Shown here: positions 1 to 8,965 of the stretch, in pieces
How positions within the stretch are numbered: position 1 is the stretch's first letter
Layout: every line of letters begins with the position of its first letter
Assembly: GCA_947628755.1 (NCBI GenBank)
Contig: CANRBC010000015.1
Location: 1 to 64,000, forward strand
Source: an uncultured Clostridia bacterium
GTDB lineage: Bacteria; Bacillota; Clostridia; Lachnospirales; CAG-274
DNA length: 64,000 nt
Direction of reading: 5' to 3'
Program-made: the position numbers and the translations under genes
The notes under the pieces: model-generated
Told to the model about the DNA's origin: nothing
Database searches by the model: none
What the model saw: the letters and a program-made list of their open reading frames with translations, nothing else

Positions 1-123
1 CTCAAGGAGGACTTCGCTGTCCTTCCCGCCGCTGTATGTTATTATCAATGGCTTGCCGTAATGCTGTAAACTCATTTCAGCGCCGACCTGCAATCTTTCT
101 ATTGCCTTTTGTTCCTTGTCCAT
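1..123 (-). CDS. PAPS reductase-like PP-loop protein, N-terminal part only
   Basis: The first 41 residues of a leftward gene cut by the window edge. They contain the PP-loop signature SGGKDSEVLL, the nucleotide-binding motif of the PAPS reductase/ATP pyrophosphatase superfamily. Start ATG at 123 has an AAGGTG ribosome site seven bases upstream and lies 11 bp after the stop of the preceding gene, so it belongs to the same early operon. Phages of Firmicutes often carry such proteins; some DNA sulfur-modification enzymes (DndC) share the fold. With only the N-terminus visible, substrate and role cannot be assigned. Confidence 0.75.
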   Translation of the reverse strand, partial: MDKEQKAIERLQVGAEMSLQHYGKPLIITYSGGKDSEVLLE

Positions 124-134
124 AATTCAACACC

Positions 135-467
135 TTAAGGTCTGTCCGTAAGCCCTAACAAAAAGTCGACAGAAGTATTATAATATTCTGCCGTCGTCCT
201 TATCACTGTTGCGAAAGTTTTTGCGTCGCATGTAAGGTCGCCGTATTCAAGTATTGCGCTCACCACGAAGGGAGGCAGTTTACATTCTCTGTGAATACAA
301 AATAGACCGTAATTTATTGTTTCTTTGTTTTCGGCGGCGAGGATCGCCACCCTTGCCGTAATAATCAAGCCGAAATTTGTCCTGCCCTTATCACAAACAA
401 CTATTGCTTCAGGGGATTTTGCAAAATGCCTGTTCAAAAATAATGTTATGTATCTTTTAATTTTCAT
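135..467 (-). CDS. Hypothetical phage protein (110 aa)
   Basis: No family recognised. The protein begins with a basic stretch and ends with YYNTSVDFLLGLTDRP, which resembles the last helix and tail of many phage XRE-type repressors, yet no complete helix-turn-helix is visible before it. ATG at 467 is preceded by GGAG at good spacing. It sits between the methyltransferase gene (15 bp upstream) and the PAPS-reductase-like gene, in the leftward early operon. A regulatory role is possible but only inferred from the C-terminal resemblance. Confidence 0.65.
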   Translation of the reverse strand: MKIKRYITLFLNRHFAKSPEAIVVCDKGRTNFGLIITARVAILAAENKETINYGLFCIHRECKLPPFVVSAILEYGDLTCDAKTFATVIRTTAEYYNTSVDFLLGLTDRP

Positions 468-482
468 TTTTCTGTACTCCTT

Positions 483-1121
483 TCAAATTCTTATAAGCGT
501 TGTATCGCCTTTGTAGCCTTTTTCCCATACAAACCAAGCGTAGAATTTTGCCGACGAAATCAGCCTAGCAGTTCCGTTTTTATCATAAATAACATTTCCG
601 TCCTTGTCTTTTGCCCTAAAGTCGCCGTTTTTGCCACAAAGCACCCGCTTCGTACATGTGTATATTTTTTTGACATTATATGTATCAAGCAGCTTTCGCC
701 TGCCTTCACTTTCCAAAAATTGAATAGGCAGAAATAAAGCAAGCTTCTTTCCTTCCGAAAGCAGTTTCATAGAGTGGAATACCCACTCTTTTGCAAAGCT
801 GTACGGGGGATTTGTAACAATGTTGTCGCCCAAAGAGGCAGTGCATTTGAAGAAATCAACATCGCCTACGCCGTAGCCTCTGTTGACAATATCTGTGCTT
901 ATGACATCATAGCCCAATTTTTCAAGTCGCTTTGCCATGTGCCCCCCCCCGCAAGCATTTTCCCATATTGTGCCTTCAAATTTCTCGTTATTGCATAATA
1001 GGTCAACTGCCGCAGGATCAGTCGCATAATAATCTTTATCAGCCCTTACTTCGGCAGAGTGATTACTTGCACATAACGCAGCAAAGACCGCTGCCTTATT
1101 CCCTGTCCAGTCATTCATCAT
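483..1121 (-). CDS. Phage-type N6-adenine/N4-cytosine DNA methyltransferase-like protein
   Basis: This 212-residue protein has the two hallmarks of an amino-methyltransferase: an AdoMet-binding loop ENACGGG (residues 54-60, followed by GYDVISTDI) and the catalytic NPPY motif at 104-107. The early DYYATDP segment (30-36) is typical of phage methyltransferases that act on DNA without a partner endonuclease. No restriction gene is nearby, so an orphan role in modifying phage DNA is the likeliest reading. ATG at 1121 has GGAGGG upstream; a second ATG follows directly. The gene starts 10 bp after the DnaC-like gene, consistent with one transcript. Confidence 0.82.
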   Translation of the reverse strand: MMNDWTGNKAAVFAALCASNHSAEVRADKDYYATDPAAVDLLCNNEKFEGTIWENACGGGHMAKRLEKLGYDVISTDIVNRGYGVGDVDFFKCTASLGDNIVTNPPYSFAKEWVFHSMKLLSEGKKLALFLPIQFLESEGRRKLLDTYNVKKIYTCTKRVLCGKNGDFRAKDKDGNVIYDKNGTARLISSAKFYAWFVWEKGYKGDTTLIRI

Positions 1122-1131
1122 ATTGCCCTCC

Positions 1132-1893
1132 TTAATTCGTATGATTTAACCTGTAATTCTTGGTAGGGTCTTTGTCAATTCCAAGCATAAATGTATTATT
1201 AGTATTTATCTTTATACGACCGTATATGGCTTCATCAAGAGCCTTCAACTCGGCAGGCGTATATTCACTGCTTATAATCGTTATTAAATTATTGTTTTCA
1301 CGATAATTCATTATTTCAAAAGCTATGGATATTTCGTATTCCGTAGGCTTTGTTTTAAATAAATCGTCTATGTATAGGACTTCACATGTCTTAAGAACAT
1401 TCAGCCTGCTTGTATCGCCTAAATTTGACTTTATTGTTCTTAAGTCGTCTATCCATTTCATATAAAAAAGCCTATAGCTTTTTTGCAAAAATCTGTTTGC
1501 TATTGCAGTGCATATATGGCTTTTGCCGCTGCCGCTCTGCCCGCCGATGTAGAGCCAGTATCGCTTATTGTCGGCTAGGGTATCAAGATATTTGACAGCC
1601 ATATTTTTTAAATACTTCTGAAATTCGGTATCTGTCTTAAAGCTTGCAAAAGTCTTACGCTTTATTTCGTTTGCCAAGCCGCTTCGCTCAATAGCGCTTT
1701 TCACTTCTTCGGCAGATACACATTTGCACCTTGCCAATGCAATATAGTAATCGTCGTCGGAAATTTGGCTGCGCAGCATTTTCGGTACTAGCTTCGTGTC
1801 GCCGCACTTCATACACAGACAATTTCCCTGCCGCCGACGTTCAATGTGTGCCAATTCAAGTGCGAGCCGTTTTTTGGCGTCCTCTTTCGTCAT
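1132..1893 (-). CDS. DnaC/IstB-like helicase-loader ATPase
   Basis: An AAA+ ATPase of 253 residues with Walker A GGQSGSGKS (117-125) and Walker B EVLYIDDLF (171-179), matching phage DnaC-like proteins that load the replicative helicase. An N-terminal Cys set (C25, C27, C30 and C56, C58) probably binds zinc, as in some Firmicutes phage loaders. Its ATG overlaps the stop of the upstream DnaD-like gene by four bases (ATGA), so the initiator and loader are translationally coupled, the usual arrangement of phage replication modules. Confidence 0.87.
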   Translation of the reverse strand: MTKEDAKKRLALELAHIERRRQGNCLCMKCGDTKLVPKMLRSQISDDDYYIALARCKCVSAEEVKSAIERSGLANEIKRKTFASFKTDTEFQKYLKNMAVKYLDTLADNKRYWLYIGGQSGSGKSHICTAIANRFLQKSYRLFYMKWIDDLRTIKSNLGDTSRLNVLKTCEVLYIDDLFKTKPTEYEISIAFEIMNYRENNNLITIISSEYTPAELKALDEAIYGRIKINTNNTFMLGIDKDPTKNYRLNHTN

Positions 1894-2651
1894 AACATTA
1901 TCACCCCTTCGTCAATGTCCGGTCCTATCGTGTCTACGTCTTCCCACATTCGTTCGGACAGCCACCTGCCTGCACTTGGAAGGTATTGCGTTGATGTTAA
2001 TTTGGTCTTGGCAATAAACATTTTAAGTGCTTTCATTATCGTGTCAAAAAGTCCATCGTCGATATTAATTTCATACCATGCCCTCTCGGCGGCATATCTG
2101 CCATACTTCTTCGGGTATAATTCAAAAAACTCGTTAAACATAACATCGGGTCTTTTTGTTTTTATTTTATTTTCTTTATTCTTATTTACTTTATTTTGTT
2201 GCGTTTCGTCGGAATTTACCCTTGTTTCGTCGGAATTTACCCTTGTTTCGTCGGAATTTACCCTTGTTGTTTGCACATTAATTAAAAGGTACTCTTGACG
2301 AATTTTTGAAAAGCCTTGTTTTTTAGCTTTGGCATACCGCTTCTGAATACCCTCGGAAGTCAGTATGCCATATTGCTTGAACATATAATCGTCAAATATA
2401 CCACGCTTAAGAGCGCAATCCACTATTTCGGAAACGACATTGCAATTTGTGTTATTTTTTTTCGCAAACAGCAACATAACTTCCTTGTCCCATTCACAGT
2501 AGTAACCATGATCTCCGTAAATCATTTGTAAAATTTTGACGACTACCGCAAACCCTTTAAGCCCGTATTGTGCTTCTAACAATTCAAACTTGGTATCAAG
2601 AGTAACATCAAGGGGAAAGTAGTCAATTCCGTCTTTAATAGGTCTTGCCAT
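1890..2651 (-). CDS. Phage replication initiator, DUF4373/DnaD-like
   Basis: The N-terminal 100 residues (FPLDVTLDTKFELLEAQYG..GFAVVVKILQMIY) match the Lin1244/Lin1753 (DUF4373) domain of phage replication proteins, predicted to be winged-helix. A C-terminal helical part (from about residue 168) is DnaD-like in position. Between them lies a linker with three exact copies of RVNSDET (130-150) followed by a Lys/Asn-rich stretch. It is directly coupled to the DnaC-like loader downstream. The start at 2651 has AAAGGATAAAGGG upstream. The origin is probably in or near this gene but no clear iteron set was found. Confidence 0.82.
   Translation of the reverse strand: MARPIKDGIDYFPLDVTLDTKFELLEAQYGLKGFAVVVKILQMIYGDHGYYCEWDKEVMLLFAKKNNTNCNVVSEIVDCALKRGIFDDYMFKQYGILTSEGIQKRYAKAKKQGFSKIRQEYLLINVQTTRVNSDETRVNSDETRVNSDETQQNKVNKNKENKIKTKRPDVMFNEFFELYPKKYGRYAAERAWYEINIDDGLFDTIMKALKMFIAKTKLTSTQYLPSAGRWLSERMWEDVDTIGPDIDEGVIML
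2204..2266 (-). repeat. Three perfect 21-bp in-frame tandem repeats
   Basis: Three identical 21-bp units (2204-2224, 2225-2245, 2246-2266) lie inside the DnaD-like gene and encode three RVNSDET heptads in the linker. Identity at the nucleotide level suggests recent slippage expansion. They could also be replication iterons, since phage initiators often bind repeats inside their own gene; that is inference. Confidence 0.95.
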
Positions 2652-2718
2652 ATTCCCTTTATCCTTTCTTGACTTGTTTTTTATGATATGATATAATTAT
2701 TATTTGTTTGTGTAAGGC

Positions 2719-2859
2719 TCACGCCTTACGGCTGCTGCCCTTTGCTTTATGCAGGGCAGCAATTTTTTTCTTACAGAGTTCGCACTTTATACCCTTTCTG
2801 CCGTCGTGTTCGGGCAGAATTGTTACAGGAGTGCCGCAGTAAAAGCATAAACCTGTCAT
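2719..2859 (-). CDS. Small CxxC...CxxC zinc-ribbon-like phage protein (46 aa)
   Basis: A 46-codon ORF, MTGLCFYCGTPV..., with two CxxC pairs (C5-C8 and C26-C29) separated by 17 residues, the pattern of a minimal zinc ribbon, then a basic tail. Its ATG overlaps the TGA of the preceding gene by four bases (ATGA at 2859-2856), strong support for coupled translation. Too short for most gene finders. Phages commonly encode such DNA- or RNA-binding zinc knuckles; no specific function can be given. Confidence 0.72.
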   Translation of the reverse strand: MTGLCFYCGTPVTILPEHDGRKGIKCELCKKKIAALHKAKGSSRKA

Positions 2860-3050
2860 TTGCTTCCGCCCCTTACAAAGTCGGGGATCAGCACTTTGCT
2901 GTCAAAGAGCTTGTCCCTTATTTCACAAGCCCTTATTGCCAATCCGTAAAAAGGCATAAATATTTCAATAAGTATGTCCTTGCCAAGCTGCACAACGGCA
3001 GCACCAACAGCCCTTACATCGTCTTTAATTGTTTTTGCTATCTTTTTCAT
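2856..3050 (-). CDS. Hypothetical small phage protein (64 aa)
   Basis: A 64-residue protein beginning MKKIAKTIKDDVRAVGAAVV, with an amphipathic N-terminal half and a hydrophobic centre (ILIEIFMPFYGLAI). No family recognised. It overlaps the 3' end of the upstream gene by 26 bp, has GAAAGGA before its ATG, and is coupled to the zinc-ribbon ORF downstream, so it is almost surely translated. Confidence 0.6.
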   Translation of the reverse strand: MKKIAKTIKDDVRAVGAAVVQLGKDILIEIFMPFYGLAIRACEIRDKLFDSKVLIPDFVRGGSK

Positions 3051-3399
3051 TTTGTTTTCCTTTCTTTAAAAACTCGTCAATGTCAACAATATTTTTACAA
3101 TCATTATTATTTTGAAGCGGCAGACTTGCTATAATATTTTCAAATGTACTGCCCTTTTTAAGTCTTATAAGGTCCATTTTTATTCGTCCGACGATACGGC
3201 TCAAGTCCTCATAATTTAAGTTTTTAATCGTAAAATCCCATACAATATCGGGCTTTTGGAGGAGTCCGTCCATAACACGGACAATAACGCTATCAGTTAT
3301 ATTTGAAAAAAAATATGTATACACCGCCGCCTTGCATCTGTATCTGTTTATATACGCTTGTAATTCAAACAGCATTTTCATTTTCTTGGCTGCTATCAT
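3025..3399 (-). CDS. Hypothetical phage protein (124 aa)
   Basis: A 124-residue protein with no recognised domain: an N-terminal helix (MIAAKKMKMLFELQAYINRY), a mixed middle, and a C-terminus rich in Lys/Asn/Asp. Its ATG overlaps the stop codon of the preceding frameshifted ORF (TAATG at 3401-3397), so it is part of the leftward early operon. No signal peptide or membrane segment. Confidence 0.6.
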   Translation of the reverse strand: MIAAKKMKMLFELQAYINRYRCKAAVYTYFFSNITDSVIVRVMDGLLQKPDIVWDFTIKNLNYEDLSRIVGRIKMDLIRLKKGSTFENIIASLPLQNNNDCKNIVDIDEFLKKGKQNEKDSKNN

Positions 3400-3634
3400 T
3401 ATTTCACCTTCCTGTAGACATAATTGTTATAATTGCTGCACTTTGTAATATAGTGCAGGCAAGTGGTATAGCCGCCCACATCAAAGCGGCAGCGAAACCA
3501 CCTTTCCCTTGTTTCAATTATGGTCGCTGATTTTTCAACGACCATTTTGTCGTCGGTACTTACGTCCCTTACTTTTATCCTATCGCCGACTTTAACCCCA
3601 AAGGGTTATGCGGCAGTACATTGACCTTACGCAT
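3399..3634 (-). pseudogene. Small phage ORF split by an apparent one-base frameshift
   Basis: Starting at ATG 3634 (AGGTGA at good spacing) the frame reads MRKVNVLPHNPL, then runs into a stop. From about 3602 a second frame opens and reads GVKVGDRIKVRDV... to a TAA at 3401 that overlaps the next gene's ATG. Adding one base in the CCCTTTGGGG run (about 3596-3604) joins the two into one 78-residue protein reading ...HNPFGVKVGDRIKV. The length modulo 3 agrees with a single missing base. A sequencing error, a real mutation or slippage are all possible. The GDRIKV segment hints at a small beta-barrel, but no family is recognised. Confidence 0.55.
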
Positions 3635-3638
3635 GACT

Positions 3639-3758
3639 TCACCTGTATTGTTCGGCAAAAAGGGCTAACATATATGCGCCCTTTCGCATTGCCTTGTCCT
3701 TCAATTCGGCAGTTGCGTATGTAGGTCGGCAATTAATTATCTTGTATGTTTTCATCAT
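3639..3758 (-). CDS. Hypothetical small phage protein (39 aa)
   Basis: A 39-residue ORF, MMKTYKIINCRPTY..., ending just before the start of the frameshifted ORF, whose ribosome site it contains. A strong GAGGTGG lies immediately upstream; the spacing favours the second of the two adjacent ATGs (3755). Such tiny genes are normal in phage early operons. No function visible. Confidence 0.5.
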   Translation of the reverse strand: MMKTYKIINCRPTYATAELKDKAMRKGAYMLALFAEQYR

Positions 3759-3798
3759 TACCACCTCAATAATATTTTTATGTTTTTTCAAGCTTGGA

Positions 3799-4170
3799 CT
3801 ATAAGCTCTTTAAAATGCTTTTGATTTGACAGAGCAGACTGTCAGCTGTCGCCTCGTCTAAGCCGAATATGTCGGCTTTGTAATAGTTATAGCCGACGAA
3901 TACGACATCGCCTGCAATTATACCCCCATACAGATATGTAGCAAACGTGTTAATTCTTTTACCTAAAATATATTTATCAACTAACATTACAACGCTATCC
4001 TTCGTCGGATCGGAAGGCTGCCCTAAGGCTGTGTAAAGCTTTATCGGCTTTACAACTTCATACCCTTGACAGTTCAGATATTCGCAAAGCTTATCGTTTA
4101 CATGCTCGTCGCTGCCCCGCGGGTATTCGTATGTAGCCACTTCATTATAAGGTGTTACCTTTATCAGCAT
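3799..4170 (-). CDS. DUF3846-like phage/plasmid protein (123 aa)
   Basis: The middle and end of this protein (VVMLVDKYILGKRINTF... and IIAGDVVFVG) resemble the DUF3846 family found on Firmicutes phages and conjugative elements, whose function is unknown. ATG at 4170 begins the leftward early operon, opposite the wHTH gene that starts at 4263. The resemblance is by eye only. Confidence 0.6.
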   Translation of the reverse strand: MLIKVTPYNEVATYEYPRGSDEHVNDKLCEYLNCQGYEVVKPIKLYTALGQPSDPTKDSVVMLVDKYILGKRINTFATYLYGGIIAGDVVFVGYNYYKADIFGLDEATADSLLCQIKSILKSL

Positions 4171-4191
4171 GTCCTATTTCGCCCCTTTCAC

Positions 4192-4220
4192 TTTACAATT
4201 TCATTTCCCTTTGCTATAAT
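4192..4220 (+). promoter_or_regulatory. Sigma-A promoter of the membrane-tailed wHTH gene
   Basis: TTTACA (4192-4197) and a perfect TATAAT (4215-4220) are separated by 17 bp, about 40 bp before the ATG at 4263. Confidence 0.75.
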
Positions 4221-4262
4221 TCACTTATCAGCACAAGCAAACTACAGAAAGAAGGAAACGAT

Positions 4263-4637
4263 ATGGATAACATAACTTTCAAGGATATTAAAATCCTTAA
4301 ATATGTAAAAAAACATTCCTGTAAGCCGTCTGAATTGCCTGCGTCGCTCGGCAAAACTGCAAAAGCCCGATTTGACAATTTATACGACTTAGGCTATTTC
4401 GCCCCCGCCTCATATGTCAAAAACGAATTTGGCGAAAAAACAAGCAGCGGCGTATATAAATTATCTTCCAAAGGAATTATTTTTTTAGAAAATCTTTGGT
4501 CAATCAAAATTGACAATTTAAAAGCATTCATAAGGAAAGAAATTGCCACGATAATAACCGCTTTTATAACTGCTCTGATAACATCAGCTGTAGCACATCT
4601 CGTTTTTCCGTCAATTATTAAATTGTTCTTACGCTGA
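4263..4637 (+). CDS. Winged-helix-like protein with C-terminal membrane segment (124 aa)
   Basis: Residues 1-75 (ITFKDIKILKYVKKH...ARFDNLYDLGYFAP...YKLSSKGIIFLE) look like a winged helix-turn-helix. Residues 93-120 (IATIITAFITALITSAVAHLVF) form one hydrophobic helix, so a membrane-anchored DNA-binding or sensing protein is likely. ATG 4263 follows GAAGGA and a consensus promoter. It is transcribed alone, between the early operon and the immunity region, and its last 20 bp overlap the end of a convergent membrane gene. Superinfection exclusion or regulation would fit the position; this is inference. Confidence 0.65.
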   Translation: MDNITFKDIKILKYVKKHSCKPSELPASLGKTAKARFDNLYDLGYFAPASYVKNEFGEKTSSGVYKLSSKGIIFLENLWSIKIDNLKAFIRKEIATIITAFITALITSAVAHLVFPSIIKLFLR

Positions 4638-4809
4638 TATATGCCATCACGAAAGCAACAAGCACCCCTGTAATAATTGATACTACGACCGTTGTAATAA
4701 AGTGTATAAGATACTCCCACGGGTGTGCTTTAATTTCGGGTATAATATTAAAGCAATCCAATATCCACCACAACTTAGGGTGTCTTTCCTTGAATTTTTT
4801 CTTTTTCAT
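4618..4809 (-). CDS. Small single-span membrane protein (63 aa)
   Basis: From ATG 4809 (GGAGCAAGGAT upstream) this protein has a basic N-terminus MKKKKFKERHPKLWW and a hydrophobic C-terminal helix (LIHFITTVVVSIITGVLVAFVMAYI). It is downstream of the Cro-like gene and probably co-transcribed. An extra near-copy of the phage operator at 4850-4863 lies 41 bp before its start. Small membrane proteins next to immunity genes often act in superinfection exclusion, which is only a suggestion here. Confidence 0.6.
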   Translation of the reverse strand: MKKKKFKERHPKLWWILDCFNIIPEIKAHPWEYLIHFITTVVVSIITGVLVAFVMAYISVRTI

Positions 4810-4834
4810 ATCCTTGCTCCTTCTTTTTATATCT

Positions 4835-5065
4835 TTATGCGCCTTCACCACACGTTTTGTGTAGTTTTTCGTCAAAAAAAAGTTCACCAACATTTACATT
4901 ATAAAGTTTTGCAAGTCGCTCTTTTGTTTCATCTCTTGGTACTCTTACACCTTTTTCATACATTTGCAAGGCAGAAACAGTCACACCGATATTGTCTGCA
5001 ACTTCTTTACGAGAGCGACTACCCCTTAATTCCGTCAGCTTTTTGCCGATTTTTTCTCTGTCCAT
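4835..5065 (-). CDS. Cro-like XRE-family repressor (76 aa)
   Basis: A compact helix-turn-helix protein: KIGKKLTELRGSRSRKEVADNIGVTVSALQMYEKGVRVP is the XRE/Cro-CI fold. It is transcribed divergently from the S24 repressor, the arrangement of a temperate-phage switch. ATG 5065 is preferred because GGTGG lies eight bases upstream; GTG codons further upstream are inside that ribosome site. Its promoter spacer contains an operator copy, so it should be repressed by one or both regulators. It lacks any protease domain. Confidence 0.85.
   Translation of the reverse strand: MDREKIGKKLTELRGSRSRKEVADNIGVTVSALQMYEKGVRVPRDETKERLAKLYNVNVGELFFDEKLHKTCGEGA
4850..4863. promoter_or_regulatory. Fourth near-perfect operator copy inside the cro-like gene
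   Basis: ACACGTTTTGTGTA repeats the immunity operator core (ACAC-5-GTGT) within the last codons of the Cro-like gene and 41 bp before the small membrane gene. A TTGACG lies just upstream on the minus strand, so it may regulate that gene. Confidence 0.6.
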
Positions 5066-5085
5066 TTTTTTCACCACCTTTCAAC

Positions 5086-5166
5086 TACACGTTTTGTGTA
5101 TTTATAATATAGCACACAAAACGTGTAGTGTCAATACATTTTTTAAAAAATCACACAAAACGTGTA
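5086..5166. promoter_or_regulatory. Three immunity operators in the divergent intergenic region
   Basis: The 14-mer ACACAAAACGTGTA occurs at 5114-5127 and 5153-5166 and inverted at 5086-5099. Each contains the dyad ACAC-N5-GTGT. A weaker relative (CACATAATGTG) lies at 5186-5196. The layout copies a lambdoid-style operator region: one site within the cro-like promoter spacer, one between it and the ribosome site, one close to the repressor promoter. Confidence 0.85.
5106..5134 (-). promoter_or_regulatory. Promoter of the cro-like gene
   Basis: On the minus strand TTGACA (5134-5129) and TATATT (5111-5106) are 17 bp apart. The operator at 5114-5127 fills the spacer, so binding would block RNA polymerase directly. 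Confidence 0.75.
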
Positions 5167-5174
5167 AATATTTC

Positions 5175-5203
5175 TTTACAAAAACCACATAATGTGTTAT
5201 TAT
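5175..5203 (+). promoter_or_regulatory. Promoter of the S24 repressor gene
   Basis: TTTACA (5175-5180) and TATTAT (5198-5203) with a 17-bp spacer, just before the strong GGAGGTGAGG ribosome site. The operator at 5153-5166 ends eight bp before the -35 box; a degenerate half-site overlaps the spacer. Confidence 0.7.
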
Positions 5204-5223
5204 CACAATAGGAGGTGAGGTTT

Positions 5224-5934
5224 ATGGCAAAAACAGGCGACATTATAAAGTCGTTACGAATTGAAAATAACATGACCCAAAAACAGTTAGCAGCCGCAAT
5301 AAAAGTATCTGAAAGCGCAGTTGGCATGTACGAGCAAAATCGTCGAGTGCCAAAATATGAAACATTAGAAGTTATTGCCGACTTTTTTAATGTAGACATG
5401 AATTATATTTTAGGCAAATCAGAAATTAAGCAGGCAACACCATTATGGAAGTATAAAATCATACAAGATTTAGACATGCTTGACAATTTAGCTCAACAAG
5501 AAGCAATGAACCGAGTAAATGAACTTCTTTATAAAAAGCCTGTTATTAAATCCAAACTTATTCCTATTGTCGGCGACGTTGCTTGCGGCAATCCTATCTA
5601 TGCAGAAGAAAACATACAGGAATATATAACTGTGCAGGAAAATGACAATGTCGATTTCGCACTTTATGCAAGGGGAAGCAGTATGAATAACTGCAAAATA
5701 GACAATGGCGACATTGTCTTTATAAAAAAGCAACCTATTGTGAATAATGGCGAAATTGCCCTTGTTCTTATAGACGACGAAGCGACCATAAAGAGATTTT
5801 ATGACCACGGCGACAGGGTAATATTACGCCCAGACAGCACAAACCCCGAATATCAAGAAAAAGAATATTCAAAAAAGGATCATACTATTCTCATTCAAGG
5901 TAAAGTCGTATTCATTAAAACATTTATATATTAA
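5224..5934 (+). CDS. CI-like prophage repressor with S24 self-cleaving peptidase domain
   Basis: 236 residues: an N-terminal XRE helix-turn-helix (about 5-60, MTQKQLAAAIKVSESAVGMYEQ) and a C-terminal LexA/UmuD-type S24 domain. The catalytic dyad is visible as Ser153 in RGSSM and Lys190 in ATIKRF, and the probable self-cleavage site is Cys121-Gly122, a Cys-Gly bond as in UmuD. This predicts RecA-triggered self-cleavage and SOS induction of the prophage. ATG 5224 follows a very strong ribosome site; an upstream GTG lies inside that site and is rejected. It is the first gene of a rightward run with the exonuclease-BRCT gene. Confidence 0.9.
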   Translation: MAKTGDIIKSLRIENNMTQKQLAAAIKVSESAVGMYEQNRRVPKYETLEVIADFFNVDMNYILGKSEIKQATPLWKYKIIQDLDMLDNLAQQEAMNRVNELLYKKPVIKSKLIPIVGDVACGNPIYAEENIQEYITVQENDNVDFALYARGSSMNNCKIDNGDIVFIKKQPIVNNGEIALVLIDDEATIKRFYDHGDRVILRPDSTNPEYQEKEYSKKDHTILIQGKVVFIKTFIY

Positions 5935-5946
5935 GGGGGAAATCAT

Positions 5947-6891
5947 ATGGAAATTATTTTTAAGACAAGCAACCAAAGAAAATATAAAGGAAAAAGCCTT
6001 ATATCATTTCCCGACAGCTATTGTATTATTGATTTAGAAACAACAGGGCTTGACCCTTTCTTTGATAGGATCATAGAGGTATCAGCCATTAAAATTTGTA
6101 ACGGAAATATTATTGATAAATTTACATCTCTTGCGAATATAGACAATGACGAATTAAGTAGCTTTATAACTCAGCTTACCGGAATAACTACTGAAATGCT
6201 TATCGACGCACCAAATTTAAATGATGTTCTCTCTGAATTTATAGATTTCATAGGCGACAATATTATAATAGGTCATAATGCAAATTTTGATATTAACTTT
6301 ATATATGATAATTGCATGACTTTACTTAATAAGCCCTTTACAAATGATTTTATTGATACATTAAGACTAGCTCGCAGACTGCTTCCAGAATTAAAAAATC
6401 ATAAACTTGTTACTCTAGCAAATAACTACAATATAAATTATTCAAATGCCCACAGAGCCTTGTCTGACTGTGAGATTACATATAATTGTTATATAAATTT
6501 AAAAAATGAAGCTCTACAAAAGTATGGCTCCATAGACGCTTTTATAAATTCCTGCAAATATCATAATTTAAAAGTTAGTGAAATAACTACCTCAAAAACC
6601 GAATTTGATACATCAAATCCTTTTTATAATAAGGTTTGCGTATTTACAGGAAAACTTGACAAAATGACAAGAGCTAATGCGGCACAAATGGTCGTTGATT
6701 TAGGCGGTATATGCAATAATAGTATAACACAAAAAACAGATTATTTAATTTTAGGCAATACAGATTATGCAAAAAACGTGAAAGATGGAAAGACAGCTAA
6801 ATTAAAAAAGGCTCAAAATTTAATATTGAACGGTTCTGAATTAGAAATTATTACAGAAAATGTTTTTTACGAAATGCTTTCAAATATATAA
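5947..6891 (+). CDS. DEDDh 3'-5' exonuclease fused to a BRCT domain
   Basis: Residues 22-185 are a DnaQ/PolC-epsilon-type exonuclease with DLETTGLD (D29, E31), HNANFD (D115) and HRALSD (H169, D174), the complete DEDDh set. Residues about 230-310 (VCVFTGKLDKMTRANAAQMVVDLGG...DYLILG) are a BRCT domain like that of bacterial DNA ligase. Exonuclease-BRCT fusions occur in Firmicutes and are thought to act in DNA repair or damage response. It starts 12 bp after the repressor stop, so it is probably expressed in the lysogen and may benefit the host or protect the prophage. Role inferred. Confidence 0.85.
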   Translation: MEIIFKTSNQRKYKGKSLISFPDSYCIIDLETTGLDPFFDRIIEVSAIKICNGNIIDKFTSLANIDNDELSSFITQLTGITTEMLIDAPNLNDVLSEFIDFIGDNIIIGHNANFDINFIYDNCMTLLNKPFTNDFIDTLRLARRLLPELKNHKLVTLANNYNINYSNAHRALSDCEITYNCYINLKNEALQKYGSIDAFINSCKYHNLKVSEITTSKTEFDTSNPFYNKVCVFTGKLDKMTRANAAQMVVDLGGICNNSITQKTDYLILGNTDYAKNVKDGKTAKLKKAQNLILNGSELEIITENVFYEMLSNI

Positions 6892-6941
6892 AATTTAAAG
6901 TAAATAAAAAGCCCCCTGCGCCAACAGGGAGCTTGCAAGCG

Positions 6942-7011
6942 TAAAATAAAGGATAAATCCTATATAATACACCGTAGCAAGTATATTATATATCATATCC
7001 TTTTATTTTGC
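6942..7011. repeat. Extended imperfect inverted repeat before the recombinase
   Basis: The left arm (about 6943-6970) and right arm (6981-7010) are complementary in two blocks: AAAATAAAGGATA with its inverse, and TATATAATAC with its inverse, around a 10-base centre. A G/C hairpin at 6910-6932 (CCCTG...CAGGG) precedes it and may end transcription from the exonuclease gene. The dyad could be a terminator, a regulatory structure or a recombinase-binding site. Confidence 0.6.
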
Positions 7012-7038
7012 AACATAAATTTAAAAGGGTGTGATACT

Positions 7039-8508
7039 ATGACTACAGCTATTTATGCCCGTCAGAGCATAAACAAAAAAGACAGCGTTTCAATCGAAAC
7101 GCAAATTGAAATATGCAAAAAAGAAATCAAAGACGGCGACGTCAGAATATATACGGACAAAGGCTTTTCGGGCAAAAATACCCTGCGCCCGTCCTTCCAG
7201 CAGCTTATGTCCGATGTGAAGGCAGGACTTATCAATAATATTGTCGTGTATCGGCTTGACAGGATCAGCCGCTCCGTAGTTGACTTTGCAAATATTGTCG
7301 ATGTTTTGAATAAGCACAATGTCGGCTTTGTATCGGCAAATGAAAAATTTGATACGACCGCCCCAGTGGGAAAAGCCATGCTATATATAGTAATGGTCTT
7401 TGCGCAGCTTGAACGTGAAACTATAGCCGAGCGCATAAAAGACAATTATTATATGCGGGGGACTGAAGGCGTATGGCTCGGCGGTCAAGCTCCCTTCGGC
7501 TTCCAAAATACCAAGACTGCCATAAACGGCAGGAAGGTCGCCACCATAGAGCCCACAGACGACCTGCCCCTCGTCGCTTGGATATTTAACGAATATATAA
7601 AAGAAGGTATGTCCCTCGGACAAATAGCCCACAAATTGACCGAAGAACGGAAAGAAATGTGGAATAATATAAAAGTCGGTCGTATTCTTCACAATCCTGC
7701 ATACGTCAAAGCCGACGCTGATGTCTATAATTTCTATCGGTCAAAGGGCTGCATAATTAAGAACGCCGTCGAGGACTTTAACGGCGAGAACGGTCTTAAC
7801 ATTTACGGCAAAAGGGACAGAGCGGCAGGGAAGTATAATAATCTTACGGACCACAATGTCGTAGTGGGACTTCACAAAGGTATTATTTCTTCCGACATAT
7901 TCCTTGCCGTGCAGGATAAGCTCGACGGCAACAAGCAGATATGCAACAACGGCAAAGGTAAACATACATGGCTTACGGGCTTGATAAAATGCGGCTATTG
8001 TGGTAAAGCAATGGTCGTAAGACAATATAAAGATACAAAATATTTCAACTGCTCCGGCAGGGCAATAGGAATATGTAGCGGCGACCCTGCCACCCACTAC
8101 GTCGCCGACATTGAAGCAGCTGTATACGGCGAGCTGAAGGAACATATAAAAGAATTTGAAAACTATACCCCCACAATATCAAGCGTGAACGAAACCGAAA
8201 TAAATAATTTAAAAATCAAAATTGTTAAAATTGACAATGAAATAAATAATTTAATAAACAGCTTGGCAGCAGGCAACACCGCCCTTATCGGCTACGCAAA
8301 CGAAAAAATATTAGAGCTTGACAAGCAGAAAAAGGACCTGTCTGCCGACCTTAACGCCCTTAACGTAAAAAAATCACGCAAGCCCGATATGCCCGACATT
8401 TCAAAATGGGACAGTAGGGACTTGGAATACAAAAGAAACCTCGCCCATATTCTTGTTGAAAAAATATCCCTCTACAACGACCACATCGAAATAAAATGGA
8501 AATATTAA
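7039..8508 (+). CDS. Large serine recombinase (phage integrase)
   Basis: 489 residues. The N-terminal resolvase domain has the nucleophile Ser10 in YARQS and the conserved YRLDRISRS block. It is followed by the recombinase domain (around 150-260), a zinc-ribbon domain with CGYCG...C...C near 318-350, and a coiled-coil segment rich in Asn/Ile/Lys (about 385-440). This is the architecture of large serine integrases, which recombine short attP/attB sites and need a directionality factor to excise. It is the last gene of the element, 60 bp from the inferred attachment site. ATG 7039 follows AAAGGGTGTG. Its terminator is at 8518-8552. Confidence 0.93.
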   Translation: MTTAIYARQSINKKDSVSIETQIEICKKEIKDGDVRIYTDKGFSGKNTLRPSFQQLMSDVKAGLINNIVVYRLDRISRSVVDFANIVDVLNKHNVGFVSANEKFDTTAPVGKAMLYIVMVFAQLERETIAERIKDNYYMRGTEGVWLGGQAPFGFQNTKTAINGRKVATIEPTDDLPLVAWIFNEYIKEGMSLGQIAHKLTEERKEMWNNIKVGRILHNPAYVKADADVYNFYRSKGCIIKNAVEDFNGENGLNIYGKRDRAAGKYNNLTDHNVVVGLHKGIISSDIFLAVQDKLDGNKQICNNGKGKHTWLTGLIKCGYCGKAMVVRQYKDTKYFNCSGRAIGICSGDPATHYVADIEAAVYGELKEHIKEFENYTPTISSVNETEINNLKIKIVKIDNEINNLINSLAAGNTALIGYANEKILELDKQKKDLSADLNALNVKKSRKPDMPDISKWDSRDLEYKRNLAHILVEKISLYNDHIEIKWKY

Positions 8509-8517
8509 ATTTACCCC

Positions 8518-8552
8518 AAAGCCTGTTAAATACTGCTTTAACAGGCTTTTTA
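8518..8552 (+). terminator. Terminator of the recombinase gene
   Basis: AAAGCCTGTTAAA and TTTAACAGGCTTT pair around a six-base loop, followed by T-rich sequence. It lies between the recombinase stop and the inferred attachment site. Confidence 0.85.
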
Positions 8553-8555
8553 TAT

Positions 8556-8592
8556 TTCATATCCAAAGTTGACAGTCTAGACTGGAAGGAGC
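8556..8592. other. Inferred right attachment site (attR)
   Basis: Deacetylase coding sequence becomes recognisable at about 8568 (VDSLDWK) directly after the recombinase terminator, so the crossover must be close by. The 12-bp perfect palindrome CAGTCTAGACTG (8573-8584) is a good candidate for the core, since serine integrases recognise near-symmetrical sites with a central dinucleotide. The exact crossover needs the left junction. Confidence 0.55.
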
Positions 8593-8846
8593 TTGGCGCA
8601 GACCACGAGATAAATCATGTGCTTAATCACAAGCATCTGGGCAACGGCTCTATAATACTTTTCCACAACGATGCGAAATATACTCCCGATGTGCTTGAGA
8701 CCATAATAAAGGGACTGAGGGACAAAGGCTATGAGATAGTGCCTATAGGTCAGCTTATACATAAAGAAAATTATTATATAGACCACGAGGGCAGGCAGAT
8801 ACCCTCTTCCGAAAATACTACGGAGCAAACATCGGCCGCGCAGTAA
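8568..8846 (+). pseudogene. 3' fragment of a polysaccharide deacetylase gene split by the element
   Basis: From 8568 the reading VDSLDWKELGAD...GSIILFHNDAKYTPDVLETIIKGLRDKGYEIVPIGQLI...IDHEGRQ matches the C-terminal third of NodB-type polysaccharide deacetylases of Clostridia, including the family's LFHND and GYEIVPI blocks. The N-terminal two thirds, with the metal-binding Asp and His residues, are absent. The only upstream start (8496) lies within the end of the recombinase gene. Many such enzymes modify peptidoglycan during sporulation or in the envelope. The missing 5' part is predicted at the other end of the element, so excision could restore the gene. Confidence 0.82.
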
Positions 8847-8861: not shown

Positions 8862-8923
8862 AAGTCTCCTTTGAACAAATTTGCAGCACCTATTGCAAAG
8901 ATTTATCAAAGGAGGCTTTTTTT
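8862..8923 (+). terminator. Terminator of the deacetylase gene
   Basis: AAGTCTCCTTTGA pairs with TCAAAGGAGGCTT, with an inner TTTGC/GCAAA stem, followed by seven T. Confidence 0.85.
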
Positions 8924-8965
8924 AATGTTATCCCTTGTTTTTTATTACCATCATACTATATGCTC

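Follow-up and report, generated by a model that had tools for sequence, protein, structure and literature searches.

The window, a 64,000-nt stretch of DNA from an uncultured Clostridia bacterium (genome G000), opens with part of an intervening element that ends within a pdaB-type sporulation deacetylase gene. In our reading, to which we give a probability of roughly 70%, the element is temperate-phage-like, entered a single-copy pdaB-type gene by means of the large serine recombinase that it encodes, and would by its excision rebuild pdaB in the mother cell. We infer the excision itself, its mother-cell timing and a place for the 5′ exon of G000 at the unassembled left end of the element. Judged from the sequences compared, elements of this kind have repeatedly settled in the pdaB of this family, at precise codons.

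The window element and the deacetylase 3′ exon

Base 1 of contig C15 of G000 is also the first base of the window, and the left end of the element therefore lies outside it. Positions 1–8567 hold the right-hand part, with phage-type replication, repressor and integrase genes, and the remainder is off the contig. On the minus strand we found the genes of a DnaC-like helicase loader (1132–1893; phrog_50, E 2e-44) and of a phage replication initiation protein (1890–2651; phrog_2562, E 3e-54; PF14297), the latter with an in-frame tandem repeat of three TRVNSDE units (2200–2275, minus strand). The plus strand encodes a CI/LexA-like phage repressor (5215–5934; phrog_4, E 2e-39; HTH_3 and Peptidase_S24), a DnaQ-like exonuclease with a BRCT domain (5947–6891) and a large serine recombinase, or integrase, of 489 aa (7039–8508; phrog_95, E 1.5e-98), whose resolvase, recombinase and zinc-ribbon domains (PF00239, PF07508, PF13408) all score over cut-off. 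The recombinase gene sits 60 bp from attR, so that the element has its own site-specific recombinase. Given the genes to the left of it (exonuclease, CI/LexA-type repressor, replication initiator, DnaC-type loader), the element has the look of a temperate phage; structural genes would fall off the contig. The 2.5-Mb genome of G000 carries eight large serine recombinases.

The initial annotation had placed the C-terminal third of a deacetylase in frame within about 20 bp of the recombinase terminator, followed by a terminator of its own, and this arrangement was confirmed. The recombinase terminator (8518–8549, plus strand) consists of a 13-bp stem and a T-rich tail (z −5.9), and the deacetylase gene terminator lies at 8862–8925 of the same strand (−23.9 kcal/mol, z −4.8). 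Homology to deacetylases sets in with the GTT codon at 8568, some 19 bp past the recombinase terminator stem, and continues to the stop at 8846; the open frame (8496–8846) begins within the recombinase gene and is deacetylase only from 8568 on. The resulting 3′ exon (8568–8846, plus strand) has 92 codons plus stop and covers positions 128–191 of the 191 of TIGR02764, the model for the sporulation deacetylase PdaB (E 1.3e-16), that is, the last third of the gene, beginning inside the fourth catalytic motif (VDSLDW). The phage P arm is joined to the pdaB B′ arm in attR (8540–8595, plus strand), with a putative att core, GTTGA, at 8568–8572. The deacetylase assignment stood, and the label NodB-type gave way to the better-fitting PdaB-type. 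As an intact close homologue scores 213.4 against the TIGR02764 cut-off of 237.4, the best result among all deacetylase models, we use the name PdaB-type and do not call the protein a PdaB equivalog. The fragment is not a chance match, since the 3′ piece recurs at about 50–92% identity in dozens of relatives.

The same annotation proposed that excision may restore the interrupted gene. In favor of this are the sporulation-type gene, the SpoIVA of the host and the 5′ half that lies colinear and in register at the far end in relatives. Neither an intact deacetylase on the other side nor a different attachment site was seen: the window fragment is the sole such piece in G000, the one intact polysaccharide deacetylase found there being a PdaA-like paralogue about 30% identical, and the breakpoint is the same in relatives. 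The 5′ half expected at the other end of the element did not turn up; that end is off the contig, and the 5′ and middle parts of pdaB were not found in the 98%-complete G000 assembly by two queries, down to E≤10. A search for the 5′ contig by flanking-gene synteny did not locate it, as neighbors differ even between G000 and its genus mate G002. With the 5′ half missing from the assembly, restoration in this genome is something we infer.

It may instead be that in G000 alone the 3′ piece is an orphan, its 5′ half truly deleted and the gene dead here though developmental elsewhere, which would be compatible with our main reading for the family. The searches of the assembly point this way, as do G002, with a 3′ exon only, and G001 of the same genus, in which no trace of a pdaB-type gene was found though SpoIVA is present. 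Against it, contigs of relatives commonly break at such elements, the window 3′ exon is intact and about 91% identical to that of G002, and the genus mates G003 and G004 hold 5′ exons on other contigs; we regard a deletion in G000 as rather unlikely. The window recombinase is 95% identical to its G002 counterpart over 371 residues, and the attR P arm is nearly identical in that genome. Between G000 and G002 the recombinase dS (0.42) is far under the exon dS (2.4), indicating that the window phage came after the split of the two species or passed between them. Conservation of the 3′ exon could thus predate the insertion, and is no proof that the gene still works here.

Split pdaB-type genes across the family

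The 3′ piece was present in most of 60 relatives searched, with many genes intact and many cut at one codon, QWD|VDSLDW. Among 48 family genomes we determined three break points, site A in SFDAAWGA, site B in WDVDSLDW and site C in LYRPPFGE, all on catalytic-motif codons. The 80 named loci (Anaerotignum, Tyzzerella and relatives) comprise 39 intact genes, 30 split at B, six at A and one at C, and four undecidable at contig edges; the gene is thus split in 37 of 76 classifiable loci, and the codon cut in the window is that of site B. Intact homologues occur beside species in which the gene is broken at the site B codon. The endospore marker SpoIVA was found in 42 of the 48 genomes, G000 among them, and the hosts are probably endospore formers; endospores of the ASF356 type have been reported in the mouse gut (PMC9543051). 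In two genomes (G009, contigs C30/C14; G050, C15/C29) contigs end at or near site B, possibly where the assembly branched between integrated and excised DNA; these ends were not used as evidence of such a mixture, the overlaps being too short to settle the matter.

When the 5′ and 3′ sides were aligned in gene coordinates, a short core common to both appeared at identical codon positions; it is TGGGGNGC at site A and lies around GATGTTGA at site B. The element arms at site A are the inverted repeats TTCTTATATTACC and GGTAATATAAGAA, matching the expectation for a serine-integrase attP. When exon pairs were joined by script, 40 of 41 gave stop-free frames aligning with intact PdaB, the exception being a degenerate 5′ fragment in G004. 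In the window attR alone is readable, and the in-frame rejoining at the att core is that of the exon pairs of relatives. As such rejoining is the mechanical outcome of precise integration, it is alone no proof of function.

At least 15 relatives, several MAGs among them, have the two halves on a single contig, always colinear and in the same orientation. The inserts between them range from 2.6-kb recombinase segments to apparent prophages of 35–40 kb. Those of A. lactatifermentans An390 (39 kb) and Clostridia UC5.1-1D10 (35 kb) occupy the site used in the window and resemble, judged by eye, whole prophages in size and ORF order, while NSJ-143 has 12.5 kb and the complete genome of Clostridium sp. 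MD294 (ASF356) 14 kb at site A. The inserts of about 2.6 kb (L182, L183, L186) contain only the recombinase and an ORF taken by eye for a CwlD-like amidase. Two or three elements can share one gene, which is in three pieces in G018 and G086 and in four in G021, with every piece kept. In one locus (G069, L093) the insert is 1.5 kb, no recombinase was found in it, and the DSLDW motif is lost though the frame is open, which we take as a decayed case. In ASF356 and two relatives (L223, L224), ligA and the adjoining pcrA (L222:6292-10486 in ASF356) lie between the site-A halves in conserved order, and none of these genomes has another full-length ligA. Excision there would be tolerable only in a terminal cell without descendants; a frozen insert, which runs counter to our main reading, would also fit the essential genes that ASF356 carries there.

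The phylogeny of the recombinases indicates that each of the three pdaB sites is served by its own recombinase lineage. All 26 site-B enzymes, that of the window included, fall in one clade (support 100/100), the two site-C enzymes group together, and seven site-A enzymes do so as well (93/88), the eighth being a bystander. In G086 and G021 the enzymes within one gene fall in separate clades by site. A recombinase beside the 5′ fragment on contig C6 of G004 was rejected as a bystander, nearly identical to another recombinase of its own genome. Site-B recombinases that are close relatives of each other (L235 and L238; L103 and the window's) can be encoded on the 5′ side of the insert in one genome and on its 3′ side in another; inserts of a single lineage thus occur in either orientation. 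No matches came from IMG/VR when it was scanned with the integrase of the window, with two patterns for the att arms and with the protein of an intact pdaB. An integrase profile retrieved 80 loci there, two of them with pdaB pieces near the integrase: in these viral contigs (L242, L321) a related integrase lies near the 3′ or the 5′ piece of the pdaB of more distant hosts, ending at site B.

Selection on the pieces and the proposed excision

Orthologous inserts with conserved gene order form three sets (G081/82/83/74 at site B, G072/85/86 at site A, and L182/183/186 at site B); in these three lineages the insert has been passed on vertically. Both exons are without internal stops and under strong purifying selection, with dN/dS of 0.005–0.13 by the Nei-Gojobori method, values that are rough because exons are short and synonymous sites near saturation in several pairs. 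The recombinases of the same sets have dN/dS of 0.14–0.25. The 5′ exons keep their start codons. Among 33 3′ exons, about 29 lack any start codon paired with a ribosome-binding site (Shine-Dalgarno). A 3′ exon that is usually untranslatable alone and yet long conserved argues for its fusion to the 5′ exon, that is, for reconstitution of the gene.

These data bear on the view that pdaB is a plain prophage hotspot, in which catalytic-motif DNA offers a conserved attB and the insertion just destroys a dispensable gene. The position of all three sites on catalytic-motif codons is what a choice of attB by sequence conservation predicts, in-frame restoration follows mechanically from any precise integration, the phage of the window is recent, and G069 has decayed. 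Such a view does not readily explain why long-inherited split genes stay undecayed around vertical inserts of conserved order, why genes in three or four pieces retain them all, or why 5′ exons keep start codons and, in arrays, a promoter-like block upstream; we therefore consider it improbable. That the pieces are instead expressed separately from a frozen split gene and assemble as a split enzyme, with no DNA rearrangement, would account for the conservation of both pieces and for the essential genes in an insert, but is very hard to reconcile with 3′ exons lacking translation starts, with recombinases under purifying selection and with a break that stays at the exact att codon.

We favor excision in the mother cell during sporulation. 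There the recombinase, probably together with a directionality factor, would recombine attL with attR, the intervening DNA would leave as a circle and the exons would fuse in frame. PdaB would then be made in a cell that has no descendants.

Some genomes contain arrays of 5′ exons. In the largest (G023, contigs C38, C47, C64, C134 and C6; L096-L101) a block occurs in eleven copies, each made up of a promoter-like region, a ribosome-binding site, the first ~71 codons, the core and a P′ arm, the same after each copy. The frame is open in all copies (pairwise dN/dS about 0.18). Where blocks share a contig they are several kb apart, and the cargo between them includes type I-C and I-B cas genes, Gabija and AbiL-like genes. 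Smaller arrays were found in G004, G062, G016 and G065. Homologous recombination between blocks is one route by which cassettes could be added.

More tentatively, we propose an extended form of this reading, which we hold at somewhat less than even odds. Here pdaB would consist of as many as four exons, which two or three orthogonal recombinases put together in the mother cell alone. The DNA between the exons would have become a stable genomic niche, able to house essential genes (ligA, pcrA) along with defence cassettes in growing arrays. Every cassette would begin with a spare promoter plus 5′ exon, and any one of these could end up joined to the only 3′ exon. Programmed chromosome deletion would be routine in spore formation. 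If our reading is true, developmental rearrangement in spore formers would be a family-wide, multi-site and long-kept system and not a set of isolated cases, a bacterium could routinely drop essential genes from the chromosome of its terminal cell, and sporulation genes would serve as safe harbors for phages and defence islands. The analysis also yields three site-specific recombinase families with mapped targets, and ASF356 as a cultured test organism.

Comparison with known systems

In heterocystous cyanobacteria, XisF acts in the developmental excision of the fdxN element in a terminal cell. XisF is the best NCBIfam match of the window recombinase, which reaches 142 bits against an equivalog cut-off of 375 and is thus not an XisF equivalog; host and gene also differ. 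SCC-type cassettes (CcrA/B/C) are similar in that the site-A recombinase matches Ccr models and that arrays of att repeats with cargo resemble stacked cassettes. Yet the Ccr score is far under cut-off (113 of 900 bits), and the repeat here is a promoter-like region with a 5′ exon.

Closer parallels are found in sporulation genes. The skin element in sigK of B. subtilis and C. difficile is excised in the mother cell by a serine recombinase, which reconstitutes the gene, with a directionality factor in C. difficile (PMC5025042). It resembles the present elements as a sporulation gene split by an element carrying a serine recombinase. The differences are another gene with up to three sites in it, inserts from prophage to minimal, some with essential genes, and an excision that is here proposed from sequence. 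SP-beta of B. subtilis is likewise a temperate phage that encodes a serine integrase, and it occupies spsM, a gene for spore-envelope polysaccharide (PMC4191935), whereas in our case one gene takes many different cargoes at three sites across a family. Other elements that carry recombinases and interrupt sporulation genes, whether or not they resemble prophages, are gin in gerE (PMC5595907) and vfbin in spoVFB and yin in yabG (PMC10747680); a split into several exons and 5′-exon arrays were not found described. No report of a pdaB rearrangement was found in the open-access literature, subscription papers being mostly uncovered. By every sequence test made, the elements of the relatives behave like the known sporulation gene-intervening systems, and pdaB is apparently a new gene for a known kind (skin/sigK, SP-beta/spsM, vfbin, gin), one that is multi-exon and sometimes equipped with defence-laden 5′-exon arrays.
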